In this document: positions 14,797-39,930 of the stretch, one piece after another | How the letters are laid out: every line of letters starts with the position of its first letter | How positions within the stretch are numbered: position 1 is the stretch's first letter | Position numbers and translations under genes: made by a program | DNA from: a virus | Length of the DNA: 39,930 nucleotides | Virus record (IMG/VR): IMGVR_UViG_3300048504_000142 | Location: 1 to 39,930 of that record | Direction: 5' to 3' (one strand) | The notes under the pieces: generated by a model | What the model saw: the letters and a program-made list of their open reading frames with translations, nothing else | Told to the model about the DNA's origin: nothing | The model's database searches: none

Positions 14797-15953
14797 AAAA
14801 AATCGCAGTAATTGGCAAGGGAACGGCTGGCTGTATGTCAGCCGCTTTCTATAAAAATCAAACAGACTGTGAAATTGATTGGTACTTCGACCCTAACATA
14901 AAACCACAATCAGTCGGAGAGGGTTCTAATTTAGTATTACCTTCGCGGTTGAATGAGTTTTTTGCATTTGGAGCAAGAGATTATAATAAAATAGATGCTA
15001 CTATAAAGACAGGTATCTATAAAGAAAATTGGGGGAAAGGCACAAAGCCCTTCCTTCATGATTTTCCTAGTCCACACACGGCTCTACACTTTAGTGCGCC
15101 TAAACTACAGGATTACATACATTCGAAATTAGAAAACTATGTAAACATAAAATCAGAGAACGTAGTAGCTAAAGATGTAGACGCAGATTACATCGTTGAT
15201 TGCACAGGTAAGCCTGTTGAATATGAGTCCCATAAACAATCTGATTACATACCAGTTAATTCTGTTTATGTTACTCAGTGTTTTTGGGAATATCCTAGAT
15301 TTAATCACACGTTAACTATTGCAAGACCATATGGTTGGGTGTTTGGTATTCCATTAGCAAACCGTTGTTCTATTGGTTATATGTATAATAAAGATATAAA
15401 TACTTTAGAAGAAGTAATGGCTGATGTTCAGAATATATTTGATGAATATAATTTAGAACCTAGTGATACTACTAATGCTTTCTCTTTCAAAAACTATAGA
15501 AGACATAGAAACATTGAAGGTAATTTAGCTTACAATGGTAATGCTTCTTTCTTTTTAGAGCCTTTAGAAGCCACGTCTTTTAGTACAGTAGATTCAATAA
15601 ACACAATAATTAACAGACACTGGTTTTGTGACGCTGATATAGAGTTAAGTAACCAAAGGTATGATTACTGGATTGACGCAAATGAAGCTATAATTATGCT
15701 TCACTATAGTGTTGGTTCAGCGTTCAAGACACCATTCTGGGATTATGCTCAAGAACGCGGTAGGAAATGTATGCAAAATGCTAATGAAAGTTTTAAGTAT
15801 ATGCTAAAACATTCAGTAGAACCTATGGGTCTTGGTACATATAGTAACTATTTTCCAGAACAATTCTTTCCACATGAAGAACTAAAGGCAGTTCATAGTA
15901 GCTGGTGGGAAGGCTCTTTCGCACAAAATAAGGTAGGCTTAGGTCTTACATAA
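14793..15953 (+). CDS. Flavin-dependent (tryptophan) halogenase-like protein
   Basis: The 386-residue protein resembles FAD-dependent halogenases (Trp_halogenase family), which use FADH2, O2 and halide to make hypohalous acid that a lysine relays to the substrate. Visible motifs: dinucleotide-binding VIGKGTAGCMSAA (6-18), DATIKTGIYKENW with K72 at the place of PrnA Lys79, WVFGIP (182-187) matching the family WxWxIP, and EPLEATS with E259 at the place of PrnA Glu346. All key positions therefore look intact. The protein is shorter than bacterial tryptophan halogenases (~500-540). No flavin reductase is encoded nearby, so reduced flavin would come from the host. The start overlaps the preceding stop. 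Substrate unknown. Confidence 0.85.
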   Translation: MKKIAVIGKGTAGCMSAAFYKNQTDCEIDWYFDPNIKPQSVGEGSNLVLPSRLNEFFAFGARDYNKIDATIKTGIYKENWGKGTKPFLHDFPSPHTALHFSAPKLQDYIHSKLENYVNIKSENVVAKDVDADYIVDCTGKPVEYESHKQSDYIPVNSVYVTQCFWEYPRFNHTLTIARPYGWVFGIPLANRCSIGYMYNKDINTLEEVMADVQNIFDEYNLEPSDTTNAFSFKNYRRHRNIEGNLAYNGNASFFLEPLEATSFSTVDSINTIINRHWFCDADIELSNQRYDYWIDANEAIIMLHYSVGSAFKTPFWDYAQERGRKCMQNANESFKYMLKHSVEPMGLGTYSNYFPEQFFPHEELKAVHSSWWEGSFAQNKVGLGLT

Positions 15954-19660: not shown

Positions 19661-20536
19661 ATGACAAAAGCAATCGACACAATGCAAGAAATCACAAACA
19701 AAGTAGTTTCATTAATGGAACAACACGGGACAGACTGGTCAAGACCTTGGCGAGATAGTGCAAGGGCTGTTGGTAATCCTATCAGTGCTAAGAAACGTGA
19801 ATACACTGGTATTAACTTTCTTAACCTTGGCTTTATTACTGCAATGTCTGGCTATAAATCACCAGTATTCGCCACGTTTAAACAATGGAAATCTTTAGGT
19901 GCTACAGTAAACAAAGGCTCTAAAGGAACACACGTTCTATTCTACACAACTTTAAAAATTAAAGATAAAGTAACTGGTGAAGATAAAACAATACCATATC
20001 CTAAAACTTATGTAGTTTTTAACGCTGATCAAGTTACTGGCTGGGACGGTTCGTGGCTTGAAGAAACTGACAGCGAATTAGATGGTGTTCAAGATTGGAA
20101 TGACATCAAAACCGCTGATCAATTTATTGCTAAGTTACCAGCCAAGATTGAATACAAACCACAAAATCAAGCATTCTATTCACCAGCTCAAGACATTGTA
20201 GTGTTGCCAGAGCGTCACCAGTTCAAAAACGCATCAGGATTTTATGGAACTGCACTTCATGAGTTAATCCACTGGACGGGTCATAGCTCGCGTCATGATC
20301 GCTTTAAATCAATGGGCAAGTTTGGTGACAAAGATTATGCATTTGAAGAACTGGTCGCTGAGTTAGGTTCTGCCATGCTGTCAAATAAACTCAAGGTTGA
20401 TAGCGAGCCACGCGCCGACCATGCAAAGTATCTTAATAGTTGGATTAAGTGTCTTAAATCAGACCCCAAAGCAATCACCAAAGCCGCCGCTTTATCTCAA
20501 AAAGCTTGCACATATTTAACTGAAGCCGCCGCCTAG
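19661..20536 (+). CDS. ArdC-like antirestriction protein (ssDNA-binding domain plus zincin metallopeptidase)
   Basis: This 291-residue protein has the ArdC two-domain layout. Residues ~5-120 form the N-terminal ssDNA-binding domain (WSRPWRDSARAVGNPIS, YTGINFLNL, WKSLGATVNKGSKGTHVLFY). The C-terminal zincin-like domain has HELIH (200-204) as the metal site, followed by the conserved HSSRHDR and FEELVAELGSAML (228-240) carrying the likely third ligand. ArdC proteins protect incoming DNA from type I restriction. The early position matches T7 gene 0.3 (Ocr), an unrelated protein with the same purpose. Ribosome site AGAGGAAAT. The stop is followed directly by RNA element copy A. Confidence 0.9.
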   Translation: MTKAIDTMQEITNKVVSLMEQHGTDWSRPWRDSARAVGNPISAKKREYTGINFLNLGFITAMSGYKSPVFATFKQWKSLGATVNKGSKGTHVLFYTTLKIKDKVTGEDKTIPYPKTYVVFNADQVTGWDGSWLEETDSELDGVQDWNDIKTADQFIAKLPAKIEYKPQNQAFYSPAQDIVVLPERHQFKNASGFYGTALHELIHWTGHSSRHDRFKSMGKFGDKDYAFEELVAELGSAMLSNKLKVDSEPRADHAKYLNSWIKCLKSDPKAITKAAALSQKACTYLTEAAA

Positions 20537-20537
20537 G

Positions 20538-20605
20538 AATGCATCGGTTAACCCATCGGAGACGGTGGGTTTGCCCGTGCAATTCAGCGCGATTGAAAAG
20601 GAAAA
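20538..20605 (+). promoter_or_regulatory. Early structured RNA element, copy A
   Basis: Outer stem 20540-20544/20077+500-style pairing is as follows: bases 20540-20544 pair with 20577-20581, then a C-C mismatch, then GG 20546-20547 with CC 20574-20575. The inner stem is 20550-20558 with 20563-20571 and a GAGA tetraloop. Alternatively CGTGC (20576-20580) pairs with GCGCG (20587-20591), which would open the outer stem. The ribosome site AAAAGGAAAA follows at once. The element starts 2 nt after the ArdC stop. Pairs differ from copies B and C by compensatory changes. Confidence 0.8.
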
Positions 20606-20610
20606 TTAAA

Positions 20611-21090
20611 ATGGCTTCTAAAACTTCAACTATGATCAAACTAGCTAGAGAAATTCGTGAAACTGCTGATGGTGGTACACCACAAGAATTAAGAGACATT
20701 GTGTCTGAAATGATACCGCAAGGCAGGTTTAAATATCCTAGCTCTTATGATTTTAACGCTGATCTAAATGGTAGAGAGTATAGGTTTATATATGATGGTT
20801 ATATCGATGATGCTTTAAGAATGGAATTTGATACAGACCCATATAATCTAGGCTGTTTTAATGCGTGGTTCTTAGCAAAATATCTTCCACTAACAAAAGA
20901 GCAAATTCTTAAAGCTCAAAAAGCTGAATGTTTTGAGGTTATAGGTCAGCTTGTTCTAGCCTGTGGAAGACTTAACGAACTGCTTGAGGACGCTGTTAGT
21001 TATGATGATTATGGACATTTTTTCTCACATTATGATGGCGTTAAAATCGACTTAGAAACAACTGATTACATGATGTTTAGAACTAATTGA
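20611..21090 (+). CDS. Early protein of unknown function (159 aa)
   Basis: I do not recognise this protein. It is mostly helical and acidic, with aromatic-rich segments (RFKYPSSYDFNADLNGREYRFIYDGY) and a Cys/Ala/Leu-rich helix (FEVIGQLVLACGRLNELLEDAV). The open frame extends upstream to ATG 20539, but that start lies inside the structured RNA element and would add 24 basic residues; ATG 20611 is preferred because AAAAGGAAAA lies just upstream. It is the first of three genes preceded by the repeated RNA element. Confidence 0.8.
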   Translation: MASKTSTMIKLAREIRETADGGTPQELRDIVSEMIPQGRFKYPSSYDFNADLNGREYRFIYDGYIDDALRMEFDTDPYNLGCFNAWFLAKYLPLTKEQILKAQKAECFEVIGQLVLACGRLNELLEDAVSYDDYGHFFSHYDGVKIDLETTDYMMFRTN

Positions 21091-21156
21091 GATTGCATCG
21101 GTTGGCCTATCGGAAACGGTAGGCGTTCCCATGCAATCAAGCATGATTAGGAGAAT
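21091..21156 (+). promoter_or_regulatory. Early structured RNA element, copy B
   Basis: GATTGCAT (21091-21098) pairs with ATGCAATC (21131-21138), then a C-C mismatch, then GG with CC. The inner stem GCCTATCG (21105-21112) pairs with CGGTAGGC (21117-21124) around a GAAA tetraloop. In the alternative form CATGC (21130-21134) pairs with GCATG (21141-21145). It begins directly after the preceding TGA and ends at the AGGAG ribosome site of the next gene. Confidence 0.85.
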
Positions 21157-21162
21157 ATAAAA

Positions 21163-21366
21163 ATGAAATATCCAATTAAAAAAGATCGTAATTACACGAT
21201 AACAAAAGAATGGACGGGTAAAGACAAGCCTCAATACGTTATCAGATTTTGTAATGAATGGGTTGATAGTAAACCAACTATAAGTAGTGCAACAATACGT
21301 GCTATTGAAGTGCAATTCGTTAATGAATGGAATTCAATGATACGTTCTGACGAGGTGCAATCATGA
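21163..21366 (+). CDS. Small early protein of unknown function (67 aa)
   Basis: Basic N-terminal half (MKYPIKKDRNYTITKEW) and a mixed C-terminal half with Trp and Glu. No domain is recognised. AGGAGAATA lies upstream, directly behind RNA element copy B. Its TGA overlaps the next start (ATGA), so this gene and the next are translationally coupled and share element B. Confidence 0.75.
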   Translation: MKYPIKKDRNYTITKEWTGKDKPQYVIRFCNEWVDSKPTISSATIRAIEVQFVNEWNSMIRSDEVQS

Positions 21367-21707
21367 GACTTTACACAAACAGAAAAGGTAATTGGGCTGG
21401 CACTCAAGCAGATGCTAAAAAACTGGGTGGGTTTTTCTGTGTCGATGTACCCACAATAAAACCAGAGTTGTTAAATTTCTTAAACTTATACAACGTTAAA
21501 GAAACTATTTACCAACCCATAGAGACACCACCAGCACCCACTAGGCAACCATCCGACCCATCCAAGCCCAGAGAGATCAAGCAGAACTCATGGGACGAAT
21601 TTAACACGGTCAAGAAGCATTTAGAAACGTGTAATCGTGAGGCTGTTTTTACAATCATGAATTTAGCAATCCAACGATACTATGAATTGGATGGCGTTGA
21701 AGATTGA
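21363..21707 (+). CDS. Early protein of unknown function with Pro-rich linker (114 aa)
   Basis: Residues ~1-50 form a mixed alpha/beta start (MRLYTNRKGNWAGTQADAKK). Residues ~55-75 are a Pro/Ser/Lys-rich linker (PIETPPAPTRQPSDPSKP). Residues ~80-110 are helical (FNTVKKHLETCNREAVFTIM). I do not recognise a family. The start overlaps the preceding stop, and its own TGA forms the first bases of RNA element copy C. Confidence 0.75.
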   Translation: MRLYTNRKGNWAGTQADAKKLGGFFCVDVPTIKPELLNFLNLYNVKETIYQPIETPPAPTRQPSDPSKPREIKQNSWDEFNTVKKHLETCNREAVFTIMNLAIQRYYELDGVED

Positions 21708-21776
21708 TTGCATCAGTTAACCCATTGGAAATTTCAGTGGGTTTGCTCATGCAATCAAGCATGAATTGAAAAGGAA
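21706..21776 (+). promoter_or_regulatory. Early structured RNA element, copy C
   Basis: GATTGCAT (21706-21713) pairs with ATGCAATC (21749-21756), then a C-C mismatch, then AG with CT (GG/CC in the other copies). The inner stem AACCCATTG (21719-21727) pairs with CAGTGGGTT (21735-21743) around a seven-base loop. The alternative hairpin is CATGC (21748-21752) with GCATG (21759-21763). The AAAAGGAAAA ribosome site follows. Confidence 0.85.
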
Positions 21777-21785
21777 AATATTATT

Positions 21786-22001
21786 ATGGACGTTTTACTA
21801 TCAACAACTACAATCGACAGTTCAGCAGATTTTGCAGAGTATTCGAACGGGGTTCACGCCGCATACGAGCAAATCAATACACCAGATTTTAGAATTACTG
21901 AAGCATTCGAAAGCTTTCACTATGACCCTGCAGACACCTTTTTTCAGCAAGGTTTCTTTGATGCTATAAGCCACGAACTTGAAAAGGTTCTTAATGTTTA
22001 G
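21786..22001 (+). CDS. Small acidic early protein of unknown function (71 aa)
   Basis: This acidic peptide is rich in Asp, Glu and Phe (SSADFAEYSNGVHAAYEQIN, then FESFHYDPADTFFQQGFFDA). The C-terminal helix is DAISHELEKVLNV. It has no Cys and no membrane segment. DNA-mimic antirestriction or RNAP-inhibitor proteins can look like this, but nothing specific is recognised. It lies behind RNA element copy C. The next ORF begins within its last codons. Confidence 0.75.
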   Translation: MDVLLSTTTIDSSADFAEYSNGVHAAYEQINTPDFRITEAFESFHYDPADTFFQQGFFDAISHELEKVLNV

Positions 22002-22436: not shown

Positions 22437-22605
22437 GAATAAAAGCATCGACCACGGCGGACACTCCAGACCAGTGTCTTCATGGTGTAATCCGTTTACT
22501 GGACCACCTCAAAAACTGAACTCAATTAGAATAATGAACTGGTGGATAAAGAATAACTTTGCTCTACCGAAATATTGGATAAGTTTAAAATGCAATCCAG
22601 TGTGA
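22426..22605 (+). CDS. Small basic Trp-rich protein of unknown function (59 aa, putative)
   Basis: ATG 22426 to TGA 22605 encodes a basic peptide with five Trp (IDHGGHSRPVSSWCNPFTG, then IMNWWIKNNFALPKYWISL). It overlaps its predecessor and lies directly before the MarR-like gene. A perfect six-pair hairpin (GACACT 22460-22465 with AGTGTC 22473-22478) lies within it. There is no recognised domain; a short lysogeny-module protein such as an excisionase cannot be excluded. Confidence 0.4.
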   Translation: MKHRNKSIDHGGHSRPVSSWCNPFTGPPQKLNSIRIMNWWIKNNFALPKYWISLKCNPV

Positions 22606-22629
22606 TTGGCATTTAGAAGAGAAAGAAAA

Positions 22630-22965
22630 ATGAAACAATTAAATAATGTCGTTGAAGCTTTAAACATAATGGCTGATTTATATTACAAATGTACAGTAAA
22701 TCACGCACGAGTTTTTCTATATGTTGCCGCCCACCGCGATGAGATAATTGAAACAAGAGACTTAGTAGCTATTTTAAATATAACTCAATCTAGTTTAAAC
22801 AGAACAATTAGATCAATGGCTCATAGGTCATACCTAAAAGAAGAAGGTTTAGGTATATTAGAATTAAAGACTTCGCCAGAAGATGAACGTCAGCGAATAG
22901 TTACTTTAACACCTAAAGGACTTGAGTTGGCTATGAGAATGGAGAGTAAAATCTATGGAAAATAA
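22630..22965 (+). CDS. MarR-like winged-helix regulator, probable lysogeny control
   Basis: This 111-residue protein has a DNA-recognition helix-turn-helix (DLVAILNITQSSLNRTIRSM, ~residues 42-61) and the MarR wing signature DERQRIVTLTPKG (~86-98). MarR proteins bind inverted repeats as dimers. The frame is open to TTG 22606, but ATG 22630 preceded by AGAAGAG-type purines is preferred. It overlaps the integrase by 11 nt, so the two are co-expressed. A role in controlling integration or early transcription is inferred from context. Confidence 0.75.
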   Translation: MKQLNNVVEALNIMADLYYKCTVNHARVFLYVAAHRDEIIETRDLVAILNITQSSLNRTIRSMAHRSYLKEEGLGILELKTSPEDERQRIVTLTPKGLELAMRMESKIYGK

Positions 22966-24043
22966 TCAAGCCATACCCAAAGGAATCATACAGCGCGGTA
23001 GAAAATACCGCGTTTCAGTTATGGTTGAGGGTACAAGACAGACTGCAACCTGTAAAAATTTAGTCGAAGCTATCTCAGTTTTAGAGAGATTTAAGCGTGG
23101 ATTATTAACAGGACATATAGTTAATTATTCTACTTGGAATGTCTCAACAGCTTGGGATAATTACATTAGATATCGAGTTGAGATTTCCCCTAATTCTACA
23201 GGCAACCCAAAGAAGTTTAATTGGTATGGCAAAATGATAATGAATTACTTCGGTAAAACTACATCATTGGATATGCTAACCGAAGCTAACGTTTCTTCTT
23301 TCTTTGATTTTCTAACCACTAAGAAGAAATACTCAGCTAGTTGTACAAACTATCTAGGAACATTAGTTTATCAAATGCAGTTATTTGCTCACAAGAGAGG
23401 CCACCTATCAACGACACCTGTTAGAATGGAGAGCCGTAAGTTAACTAAAGGACGCATTAGATTTGTGACTGCAGAAGAAGAACTAAAAATTCTCGATTGG
23501 TATAATACAACTGGTCGAGAAGATGATGCAGATTTAGTTGTATTCTTTTTAGATACAGGCATGAGAAAATCAGAAGGTCTCAGGTTAACCTTTAACGATA
23601 TCGATTTTAAAACAGGTCGTATATCAATCTGGCAAACTAAAACAAACTACCCACGATCTATCAAAATGTCAGCGCGTGTCAGAACTATTCTAATGGGTCT
23701 CAGGCTACGTGTTAATGGTAATGATAGGAGAGTATTCGGACACATAGCTGAGAAGCGTTTCTACAGGAATTTCTGGGAGATGAGAGATGCTTGTGGGTTT
23801 GGTAAGGACTTAGTTATACATACCTTTAGACACACCTGTTGCACTCGTTTACTAGGAGCTGGTGTAGACATCCGATCAACTCAAGAATGGATGGGTCATT
23901 CGGATATTTCTATGACACAACGTTACGCTCATTTCATTCCAAGTAAGCTTGATGATGCAGTCGAAGCATTGGATAGTTTACAAAATACAGACATCAATTT
24001 AGAAGGAGATAACATCACATTATTTAACCCTCGCAGGGCTTAA
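22955..24043 (+). CDS. int: Tyrosine integrase
   Basis: This 362-residue site-specific recombinase has an N-terminal arm-binding region (~1-60), a SAM-like core-binding domain (~62-155) and a catalytic domain (~165-335). All catalytic residues are visible: R204 (DTGMRKSE), K229 (QTKTNYPR), H289 and R292 (HTFRHTCC), H315 (WMGHSDIS) and the nucleophile Y324 (QRYAHF). GGAGAG precedes ATG 22955. The position just upstream of the RNA polymerase matches integrase-bearing T7-like phages of marine bacteria (pelagiphages and some cyanopodoviruses). It shows that the phage can probably lysogenise. Confidence 0.97.
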   Translation: MENNQAIPKGIIQRGRKYRVSVMVEGTRQTATCKNLVEAISVLERFKRGLLTGHIVNYSTWNVSTAWDNYIRYRVEISPNSTGNPKKFNWYGKMIMNYFGKTTSLDMLTEANVSSFFDFLTTKKKYSASCTNYLGTLVYQMQLFAHKRGHLSTTPVRMESRKLTKGRIRFVTAEEELKILDWYNTTGREDDADLVVFFLDTGMRKSEGLRLTFNDIDFKTGRISIWQTKTNYPRSIKMSARVRTILMGLRLRVNGNDRRVFGHIAEKRFYRNFWEMRDACGFGKDLVIHTFRHTCCTRLLGAGVDIRSTQEWMGHSDISMTQRYAHFIPSKLDDAVEALDSLQNTDINLEGDNITLFNPRRA

Positions 24044-24409: not shown

Positions 24410-26884
24410 ATGACCAACGATCTGTACCGAGTACAAGAAGAGCTAGAACAAGAAGCTAGAACATTAACAATCAAGAGATTTGAAGAGGAACTAAAAGATA
24501 AAATAGAACGAGGTGACGAATCATCTACCTACTATGGGAACACTGTAATGAAGCGTTCTATCGAGAGTGTTATTGAAGGCATCCATGATGTCTATGAAGA
24601 AGCTGAACAAGGTAATGCAGGTAGACGTTCATCTGCAGTAGCCATGATGAAACTATTTAAACCAGAAATCCTAGCTTTCTTTACTGCTAAAGTAATCATG
24701 GATAGGATATCTAAGAAAGCAATCTTACAGGATATGGCTATCAATGTGGCTCAGTATCTTGAGGATGAACTAAGGTTACAATCTTTTGAAGAACAAAAAC
24801 CTTACCTGTTGAAATCAATTCAGAACAATAAAGAAACTACACGTTCACGAAAGAGAACTGAAATCATAGCGGCATACAACAGATACTGTGAGGAGTGGGT
24901 TGGCTGGACTAAGGACGAGAAGACACACCTTGGAACTAAACTAATTTATATATTCCAAGAGCGTACAGGATTTATCGAACTGGTTATGAAAAAGAAAGAG
25001 CGCTCTAACAAAGCTTTATATAACGTTGTACCTACACAAACAGTCGTGGATTTTATCGAAAAAAATAAGAACGCCGCTTCACTTATGCAACCTATATTTC
25101 AACCGATGGTTGTACCGCCGATGGATTGGACAAGCCCCTTCTCTGGTGGATACCTAACACACTACACCCCTCGCCTTCCCTTAATTAAAACAGGTAATAG
25201 AAATTATCTAAAGGAACTAGAGAACTTAGGTGATGAATTGAAAGATGTTTATGATGCAGTAAACACAATTCAGAAGACACCTTGGGCAATCAATAAGTTT
25301 GTATTGAAAGTGTTCCAGCAAATCCACGATAACGGTATTCCTGTAGGCAACCTACCACCACAAGAGGATATGCAGAAACCACCTTCACCTCTACAGTTTG
25401 ACCGTGATAGTTCTACGTTGACCGATGAAGAGAAAAAGAAGTTCAAAGATTGGAAAAGAAAAGCCACTAAAATCTATGACGAGAACATCCGTATAGGTTC
25501 TAAAAGAAACCTAACAGCACGGGTAAGATTTATGGCAGAAAAATATTCTGAGTTTGAGAGTATCTTCTTTGTACATACGATGGACTTTAGAGGTAGGCTT
25601 TACCCTGCAGGTTCTTCACATCTCTCACCGCAAGGTAATGATTTATCTAAAGGACTGCTACAGTTTGCAGATGGTAAACCATTAGGTACAAACGAGGCCG
25701 CTTGTGAACTAGCAATCCACGGTGCTAACTGCTTTGGATATGACAAGGCATCGATGCAAGAGAGAGTTGATTGGGTAGTAGAAAATGAGCAACGAATATT
25801 ACAGGTAGCTCATGACCCTATGGAAGACTTATGGTGGGCTAAAGAAGCTGACAGTCCTTGGTGTTTCCTAGCATTCTGTAAGGAGTGGGAAGGATATAAT
25901 CTTTTTGGTTATGATCATGTAAACTACATACCAGTTTGTAAGGATGGTAGTTGTTCTGGCCTTCAACATTTCTCAGCCGCTTTATCTGACGGTGAAGGTG
26001 CGACACAAGTAAACCTACTACCATTAGATAAACCTGCAGATATCTATCAGACTGTGATTGATAAAGCTATCATCAGAGTTAAGGCTGATGCTGTGCGTGG
26101 GGAGAATAAAGAAATAGCACAGGCTTGGTTAGATTTTGGTATGACCAGATCGTCGAGTAAAAGATCAGTAATGACACGGGTCTATGGTTCAACGTTGTTC
26201 TCAGCAAGGTCATTTGTACAGGAATATATAGTTGATACAGACTTGAAAAGATTACAAGCTGATAGATCATATGTATCTCCTTTACTTGATAAAGAATTTG
26301 ATGCGGCAATCTACCTAGCTAAGTATATCTGGGAAGCTATCAACGATACAGTTAAGGCGGCTAAGACAGGCATGGATTGGTTACAGTCTTGTGCTAGGGA
26401 GTTGGCTAAAGAAAACTTACCTATCACTTGGACTACTATCGATGGCTTACCTATCATGCAGAACTATCCTGATATGAAGAAGCGCAGAGTTAAGACCAAG
26501 TTTGGTGACAAGCTAATCTATATGACAGTACAGGAAGCTATCAAAGATAAGCTGGATAGCAGACGACAAGGTAATGGCATCAGTCCTAATTGGGTTCACG
26601 CTAATGATAGCTGTCACCTAAGAATGACAGTCAACCTATCTAAGTTCAACGGTGTCACTCACTTTGCTATGATACATGATAGCTTTGGATGTCACGCCGC
26701 TGATGTTGAGATGCTTGGTGCTTGTCTAAGAGAAACCTTCATAGAACTTTATGTAGAGAACGACCCACTACAGAAATTTAAAGATGAAGGAGAGTTGTTA
26801 ATCGATAGAGAACTACCTGACCTACCACCAAAGGGTGACTTCGATGTTACACAAGTACGTCAGTCAGAGTTCTTCTTTGCATAA
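24410..26884 (+). CDS. Single-subunit DNA-dependent RNA polymerase (T7 gp1-like)
   Basis: This 824-residue enzyme compares with 883 in T7. It transcribes middle and late genes from the GTTGCACTATAG promoters. Catalytic motifs: DGSCSGLQHFS with D512 (T7 Asp537), KRSVMTRVYGS with K584 and Y592 (Lys631, Tyr639; same spacing of eight), and HDSFG with H756 and D757 (Asp812). The C-terminus ends in FFA, as T7 RNAP ends in FAFA, and is needed for catalysis. AAAGGA lies ~10 nt upstream of the ATG. Expression probably begins from host read-through, then from promoter 2. Confidence 0.98.
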   Translation: MTNDLYRVQEELEQEARTLTIKRFEEELKDKIERGDESSTYYGNTVMKRSIESVIEGIHDVYEEAEQGNAGRRSSAVAMMKLFKPEILAFFTAKVIMDRISKKAILQDMAINVAQYLEDELRLQSFEEQKPYLLKSIQNNKETTRSRKRTEIIAAYNRYCEEWVGWTKDEKTHLGTKLIYIFQERTGFIELVMKKKERSNKALYNVVPTQTVVDFIEKNKNAASLMQPIFQPMVVPPMDWTSPFSGGYLTHYTPRLPLIKTGNRNYLKELENLGDELKDVYDAVNTIQKTPWAINKFVLKVFQQIHDNGIPVGNLPPQEDMQKPPSPLQFDRDSSTLTDEEKKKFKDWKRKATKIYDENIRIGSKRNLTARVRFMAEKYSEFESIFFVHTMDFRGRLYPAGSSHLSPQGNDLSKGLLQFADGKPLGTNEAACELAIHGANCFGYDKASMQERVDWVVENEQRILQVAHDPMEDLWWAKEADSPWCFLAFCKEWEGYNLFGYDHVNYIPVCKDGSCSGLQHFSAALSDGEGATQVNLLPLDKPADIYQTVIDKAIIRVKADAVRGENKEIAQAWLDFGMTRSSSKRSVMTRVYGSTLFSARSFVQEYIVDTDLKRLQADRSYVSPLLDKEFDAAIYLAKYIWEAINDTVKAAKTGMDWLQSCARELAKENLPITWTTIDGLPIMQNYPDMKKRRVKTKFGDKLIYMTVQEAIKDKLDSRRQGNGISPNWVHANDSCHLRMTVNLSKFNGVTHFAMIHDSFGCHAADVEMLGACLRETFIELYVENDPLQKFKDEGELLIDRELPDLPPKGDFDVTQVRQSEFFFA

Positions 26885-39787: not shown

Positions 39788-39878
39788 TAAACCTTCAGAA
39801 GAGCCTGTAAAGAAACCACTGGCAACACCTTCCATTATCAAAGGAAATCCACACCCAATTAAAAGGGAAGACTTCTAA
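39750..39878 (+). CDS. Small lysine-rich protein between portal and scaffold (42 aa)
   Basis: ATG 39750 lies in another frame within the portal end, with AGGAA 6 nt upstream. The product is Lys/Pro-rich (MLKAKDSKAAKDSKPSEEPV to KREDF) and ends 2 nt before the scaffold start. Function unknown; small basic morphogenesis proteins are possible. Its 3' part is repeated at 1-75 because of the contig overlap. Confidence 0.6.
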   Translation: MLKAKDSKAAKDSKPSEEPVKKPLATPSIIKGNPHPIKREDF

Positions 39879-39930
39879 GAATGGCAGAAAGCATCACAAT
39901 AACAGAAGAAGAGACAGGTTCTGAAGCACC
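39804..39930. repeat. Terminal direct repeat, right copy
   Basis: Identical to 1-127. It contains the end of the 42-residue ORF and the first codons of the scaffold gene, so the scaffold gene continues at base 78 onward of the left end. Confidence 0.95.

Follow-up and report, generated by a model that had tools for sequence, protein, structure and literature searches.

A two-state intercistronic hairpin between early genes of marine phages

Overview

An RNA element new to Rfam and supported by covariation was identified between the early genes of marine phages, where a long hairpin begins close to the stop codon of the preceding gene and shares one of its strands with a second, competing pairing. 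The analysis shows the structure and its covariation, the competing pairing, where the stop codon lies, the presence of the element in many phages and the differing genes downstream of it. The best supported mechanism is a T7-like RNase III processing site with strand capture, a reading that is slightly more likely to fail than to stand and in which cleavage, the enzyme involved, the cut site and any benefit to the mRNA are all inferred.

The window, that is, the whole stretch of DNA analysed, is a 39,930-base contig of a T7-like (Autographiviridae) marine phage, whose closest phages in GenBank are Roseobacter Autographiviridae, namely CRP-125, CRP-114 and relatives. An exact 127-nt direct repeat at positions 1-127 and 39804-39930 could represent a terminal repeat or an overlap from circular assembly. 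In addition to a phage RNA polymerase gene (24410-26884), the window encodes an integrase, a MarR-type regulator and an ArdC-like antirestriction gene. All three copies of the element belong to the early region and precede the polymerase gene (Table 1). An open reading frame starting at 20539, inside copy A, is probably not a true gene start, the ATG at 20611 being the likelier one.

Other features of this contig were also observed. The MarR-type regulator and a tyrosine integrase lie at 22630-24043, directly upstream of the T7-like RNA polymerase, and the same arrangement is found in CRP phages and in LUZ100; the two genes hint that this T7-like phage has a temperate option. Additionally, ATTARGTTGCACTATAGCATT-like repeats of 21 nt each occur at positions 15693, 18642, 24354, 26900, 28538 and 37777 (family D2), and these sites are likely to be the promoter of the phage's own RNA polymerase. 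A further inverted repeat, ATGCAATC-CAGTGT-GATTGGCAT, at 22590-22612, just 5' of the MarR-type gene, is conceivably a decayed or a different element.

Table 1. Positions in the window of the three element copies, their signals and the neighbouring early genes
Feature	Position	Strand	Remark
Stop codon TAG of the ArdC-like gene (19661-20536), base of P1 of copy A	20534-20536	+	
Copy A, two-state hairpin (P1, C-C mismatch, P2, P3 with GAGA loop, then segment b)	20535-20591	+	
Copy A, competing hairpin CGUGC-AAUUCA-GCGCG	20576-20591	+	arms 20576-20580 and 20587-20591
Shine-Dalgarno-like AAGGA before ATG 20611	20598-20602	+	sequence
Early gene of 159 aa downstream of copy A, no family	20611-21090	+	other genes here in relatives
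Stop codon TGA of gene 20611-21090, base of P1 of copy B	21088-21090	+	
Copy B, two-state hairpin, GAAA loop	21089-21145	+	
Copy B, competing hairpin CAUGC-AAUCAA-GCAUG	21130-21145	+	arms 21130-21134 and 21141-21145
Shine-Dalgarno AGGAG before ATG 21163	21149-21153	+	sequence
Overlapping pair of early genes downstream of copy B (67 aa, phrog_16510; 114 aa, no family)	21163-21707	+	
Copy C, two-state hairpin, longer loop	21704-21763	+	
Stop codon TGA of gene 21363-21707, within P1 5' strand of copy C	21705-21707	+	
Copy C, competing hairpin CAUGC-AAUCAA-GCAUG	21748-21763	+	arms 21748-21752 and 21759-21763
Shine-Dalgarno-like AAGGA before ATG 21786	21771-21775	+	sequence
Early gene of 71 aa downstream of copy C, no family	21786-22001	+	

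The main fold and its covariation

The default helix of about 20-24 pairs lies between the stop codon and the Shine-Dalgarno of the next gene, and is composed of P1 (8-10 pairs), a conserved C-C mismatch, P2 (2-3 pairs), an internal loop, P3 (7-10 pairs) and a variable loop. It was verified that copies A, B and C fold at -27.6, -28.6 and -30.0 kcal/mol (z -4.4, -5.6 and -6.4, respectively), energies that no dinucleotide shuffle matched (0/200), and that they score 59.6, 71.6 and 69.2 bits with the R2 covariance model described below. Due to G-U pairs, the plus strand folds 5-8 kcal/mol better than its complement; therefore, the element is an RNA on the gene (+) strand.

In the 36-sequence alignment, both sides change in nine of the 12 P1 and P2 pairs, and the covariation score of these helices reached 0.276, compared with 0.151 +- 0.011 for shuffled alignments and no more than 0.074 for slid partners. 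The P3 helix was not aligned correctly by MAFFT for all groups and was judged from single folds, in which it is kept in all copies despite fully different letters, as in the versions GCAGCGU/GCGCUGC, GGGGCAGG/CUUGCCCC and GGCGCGGCG/CGUCGCGCC. The 3' strand of P1 (AUGCAA) is nearly invariant and the 3' C of the C-C mismatch is fixed, while the 5' strand drifts, with CG turning into UG in 12 sequences.

A first-pass annotation, made from sequence alone, had described three copies with one common fold, each in the order stop codon, hairpin, Shine-Dalgarno and ATG, and had named four compensatory changes. The places and the order held, as did the common fold, which is far better than that of shuffles, and the four changes (alignment A1; pairs 12-44, 17-39, 20-36 and 23-33). 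Its division into an outer stem, a mismatch, an internal loop and an inner stem held only in part: the helix is nearly continuous, and the corrected order is outer stem, C-C mismatch, 2-3 pairs, U-U mismatch and inner stem. The GNRA loop that it had pointed out (GAGA in A, GAAA in B) is not a feature of the family, in which GUCU, CAAG, UGAG and other loops occur elsewhere. Its claim of selection on RNA structure before early phage genes is supported, as the covariance-model search that it had suggested recovered homologues and the covariation score lay above both the shuffled and the slid controls. Its failure to place the element in a known RNA family was also borne out, with no match in Rfam.

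The competing hairpin

The conserved part was found to reach further 3' than the fold described in that annotation, to a GCATG segment (GCGCG in copy A) that forms a competing hairpin. The reading of the annotation was incomplete in that it overlooked this exclusive second hairpin, the regularity with which the stop codon sits at the foot of the stem, and the fact that downstream genes are exchanged. The segment in question, segment b, corresponds to the five columns 3' of P1 and pairs with the upper part of the P1 3' strand plus the mismatch C. Because both pairings use one strand, the two folds are mutually exclusive, and this strand sharing fits the near-invariance of the 3' strand, the drift of the 5' strand and the fixed mismatch C.

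The competing pairing holds in 99.4% of cells, four sequences having G-C in place of A-U, and it occurs in the versions CAUGC/GCAUG, CGUGC/GCGCG, CGUGC/GCACG and CGUGG/CCACG; the second of these, present in copy A, is a compensatory change relative to the first (alignment A2). In the CCACG group, segment b remains complementary while its distance shifts from 5 to 10 to 12 nt. A five-pair partner was present in 35 of the 36 copies, against 0.4 expected from shuffled tails; the copies are related, so that neither this count nor the 99.4% is an independent test.

When the 5' strand was held open, a 3' hairpin of at least four pairs formed in all copies analysed (41/41). The competing fold is the minimum-energy state in CRP114a, CRP227a and CRP361b, and in the other copies the long hairpin is the more stable one, by some 3 to 14 kcal/mol. 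The mean energies are -27.9 kcal/mol for the long hairpin and -20.7 kcal/mol for the competing fold. The Shine-Dalgarno is hidden by neither fold.

Placement and gene exchange

Of the 55 copies with a called upstream open reading frame, 48 have the stop codon no more than 5 nt from the first P1 base, most frequently at nucleotides 2-4. These copies include related contigs and are not independent, and some outliers reflect limits of the rule by which the longest open reading frame was taken. The next start codon is usually found 16-24 nt after segment b. The ArdC-like gene and copy A are followed by different genes in the window and in two other contigs (L001 and L052), and one 105-aa gene with its element precedes several genes, including an integrase in L232. 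The gene beginning MMNSEIL... follows two versions of the element, and so does the gene beginning MRQIEKE.... Downstream genes thus vary, and one gene can stand behind different versions; therefore, the element is a fixed linker for gene exchange.

Homologues and their distribution

Pattern scans of viral contigs and the relatives of three phage RNA polymerases served as sources, and two covariance models were built, R1 from nine sequences and R2 from 36. With these models, homologues were found in about 45 other viral loci, and the R1 and R2 searches yielded about 40 distinct trusted sequences. The Roseobacter phages CRP-114, CRP-227 and CRP-361, all with complete genomes, carry two copies each in the early region only, and in the whole genomes searched (these three and the window) the early region holds every copy. 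The cultured carriers infect Paracoccaceae, a host assignment based on these three phages. A text search of the genome paper of the CRP phages returned nothing on RNA structure, stem-loop, hairpin, RNase III or promoter.

The covariance models did not detect the element in the related phages CRP-125 and CRP-113, and therefore it is not essential to this group. The T7 genome gave no match to R1 or R2, and none was found in the regions of CRP-810, Ruegeria phage 45A6, Sphingomonas phage Lucius, HTVC031P, RHEph21 and LUZ100 that were searched. On the other hand, contigs L226 (35 kb) and L236 (63.7 kb), and also L231, carry the element with no T7-type RNA polymerase detected. Because L226 and L236 show no such polymerase, the element is likely to reach beyond Autographiviridae, although fragments could lack that part of the genome. 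A UvrD-like helicase was observed near the element in L226 and a CobS-like gene near that in L231.

In 785 kb of unrelated DNA, the top R2 score was 18 bits, versus 24-74 bits for accepted copies. Since R2 was trained on most accepted copies, high scores are partly obtained by construction; L315, L346, L349 and L303 are outside the training set, and L352 has the same core as L347, which is in it. E-values are rough, many of the viral contigs are fragmentary and partly redundant, and the search patterns themselves account for part of the letter conservation in AUCRGU...CYCAUGCAA. Two loci that fit the pattern, L240 and L241, were treated as chance and excluded. An 18-letter pattern scan of genome contigs returned apparent chance matches only, and these loci were reused in the negative control. 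A blastn search of two hairpins against the phage collection gave no credible match, and the copies in the CRP phages were later found by the covariance model. None of 385 alphaproteobacterial genomes contained the strict pattern, which recovers just the common sequence class, so that this test is a weak argument against a host origin. Finally, Rfam 15 returned no family at gathering or relaxed thresholds, the best hit at the element being mir-194, with 22 bits against a cut-off of 52.

A proposed processing site with strand capture

It is known that T7 early mRNA is cut by RNase III at five sites and that one of them, R1.1, is cut by an alphaproteobacterial RNase III. By analogy, the element would be a cis-acting intercistronic site in marine phage early mRNA, at which the host RNase III or a similar double-strand nuclease would cut at or near the mismatch and P2 and so divide the polycistronic transcript. 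Once released, the 3' strand of P1 (CAUGCAA) would pair with segment b (GCAUG); this pairing would separate the cut strands, and the downstream mRNA would then begin with a small hairpin. The intercistronic location, the several copies and the early region, the same setting as in T7, are in favour of this reading.

The T7 sites used for comparison, R0.3, R0.5, R1, R1.1 and R1.3 at their generally known positions, are likewise irregular early hairpins between genes, several per genome, placed before the next ribosome-binding site. When folded, they display the same plan, with a lower stem, an internal loop, an inner stem of about nine pairs and a small loop, and the R0.5 and R1 hairpins also begin at the preceding gene's stop codon. 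Like a T7 site, the element forms an irregular duplex of some two helical turns, interrupted by an internal loop. However, the T7 internal loop is asymmetric, whereas the element has a symmetric C-C mismatch and P2. Because no T7 site matches the element in sequence or by model, and four of the five lack a comparable downstream competing segment, the resemblance is architectural only; this and the lack of cleavage data count against processing. Moreover, the letters at the loop and mismatch positions (AUCRGU...CYCAUGCAA) are over-conserved for a double-strand nuclease, in part an effect of the search patterns. As a separate observation, the RNA just after the cut in T7 R1.1 (L361 5889-5909) can form a seven-pair hairpin, AUUGACC...GGUUAAU, which might parallel the competing hairpin of the element.

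Two other systems were compared. The promoter early stem-loops (PeSLs) of T4-like phages are hairpin linkers between early genes and a site of gene exchange (PMC4503421, citing Arbiol 2010, Comeau 2014). They share with the element a conserved hairpin at exchanged gene cassettes, but a PeSL couples a promoter to a terminator-type stem-loop, whereas the element is an intercistronic two-state hairpin. Promoter-like sites were not enriched in the early region (14 versus 20.8 expected), and the nearest forward one (21787-21814, 9/12) lies inside the gene after copy C. The ermC leader is a translational attenuator in which one strand has exclusive pairings that the ribosome can control. The element also has one strand with mutually exclusive pairings; unlike ermC, it has no common leader peptide (the ATG-to-ATG spacing is not in frame), follows an ordinary upstream gene and leaves the Shine-Dalgarno free. 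The intercistronic processing hairpins of T7-like phages are the nearest kind, unless the switch reading discussed next proves right.

Alternative explanations

A switch gated by translation termination is a possible alternative. In this case, a ribosome at the stop codon would hold the P1 5' strand open, so that the 3' strand pairs with segment b, and without a terminating ribosome the long hairpin would form; the resulting state would set reinitiation, initiation or stability of the next gene. The closeness of the stop codon to the start of P1 in most copies is in favour of this. A ribosome with a stop codon in its A site covers about 12 nt downstream (the toeprint distance), and such a footprint would open P1 up to the C-C mismatch; additionally, the competing fold is already preferred in the three copies named above. 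However, there is no obvious output, since neither fold hides the Shine-Dalgarno, and the long hairpin is favoured by several kcal/mol in most copies. Moreover, T7 RNase III hairpins also start at stop codons, and compact packing may explain this position. A bolder version, which can only be offered as a possibility, is that the stop codon is part of the hairpin and that segment b traps the strand freed by the terminating ribosome, coupling the fate of each early cistron to translation of the preceding one, while the element also acts as a portable linker for gene swaps between marine phages.

It is unlikely that the element is recognised by an RNA-binding protein, of phage or host origin, that would jointly control several early genes. 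Letters near the C-C mismatch and the internal loop are conserved but P3 is free to vary, several copies per genome precede different genes, and the element occurs in different phage groups. However, no candidate protein is at hand, the competing pairing requires none and the search patterns explain part of the letter conservation.

A DNA repeat or recombination site for early-gene cassettes, with incidental RNA structure, would agree with the different genes found after the same copy and the same gene found after different copies. Nevertheless, it is very unlikely, being largely refuted by the covariation and by the strand asymmetry, with G-U pairs on one strand only; the fixed orientation and the fixed placement between stop codon and Shine-Dalgarno call for selection on RNA, and homologous recombination at a conserved linker is the simpler explanation of the exchange. 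It is equally improbable that the element is merely an mRNA-stabilising hairpin or an intrinsic terminator: the hairpins are stable and intercistronic, but no U run follows them and a stabiliser needs neither the conserved C-C mismatch nor a second partner of the 3' strand.

Other candidates were rejected. An intrinsic terminator and a promoter cassette were ruled out, with no terminator-like site at the elements and no enrichment of promoter-like sites, and no tRNA was found. A leader peptide running from AUG CAA...AUG was discarded, as loop length varies and the frame is not kept, and an integron attC-like site was rejected by eye, as the core boxes do not fit.

Significance

The element represents a new RNA family in an abundant marine phage group, and its cultured carriers CRP-114, CRP-227 and CRP-361 allow testing. 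If the processing reading is true, early mRNA is processed in a T7-like manner, with an added strand-capture device, in phages distant from T7; if the switch reading is true, the element would be a new stop-codon-gated switch. Either reading suggests how new host-takeover genes may plug into the early operon with ready expression signals.
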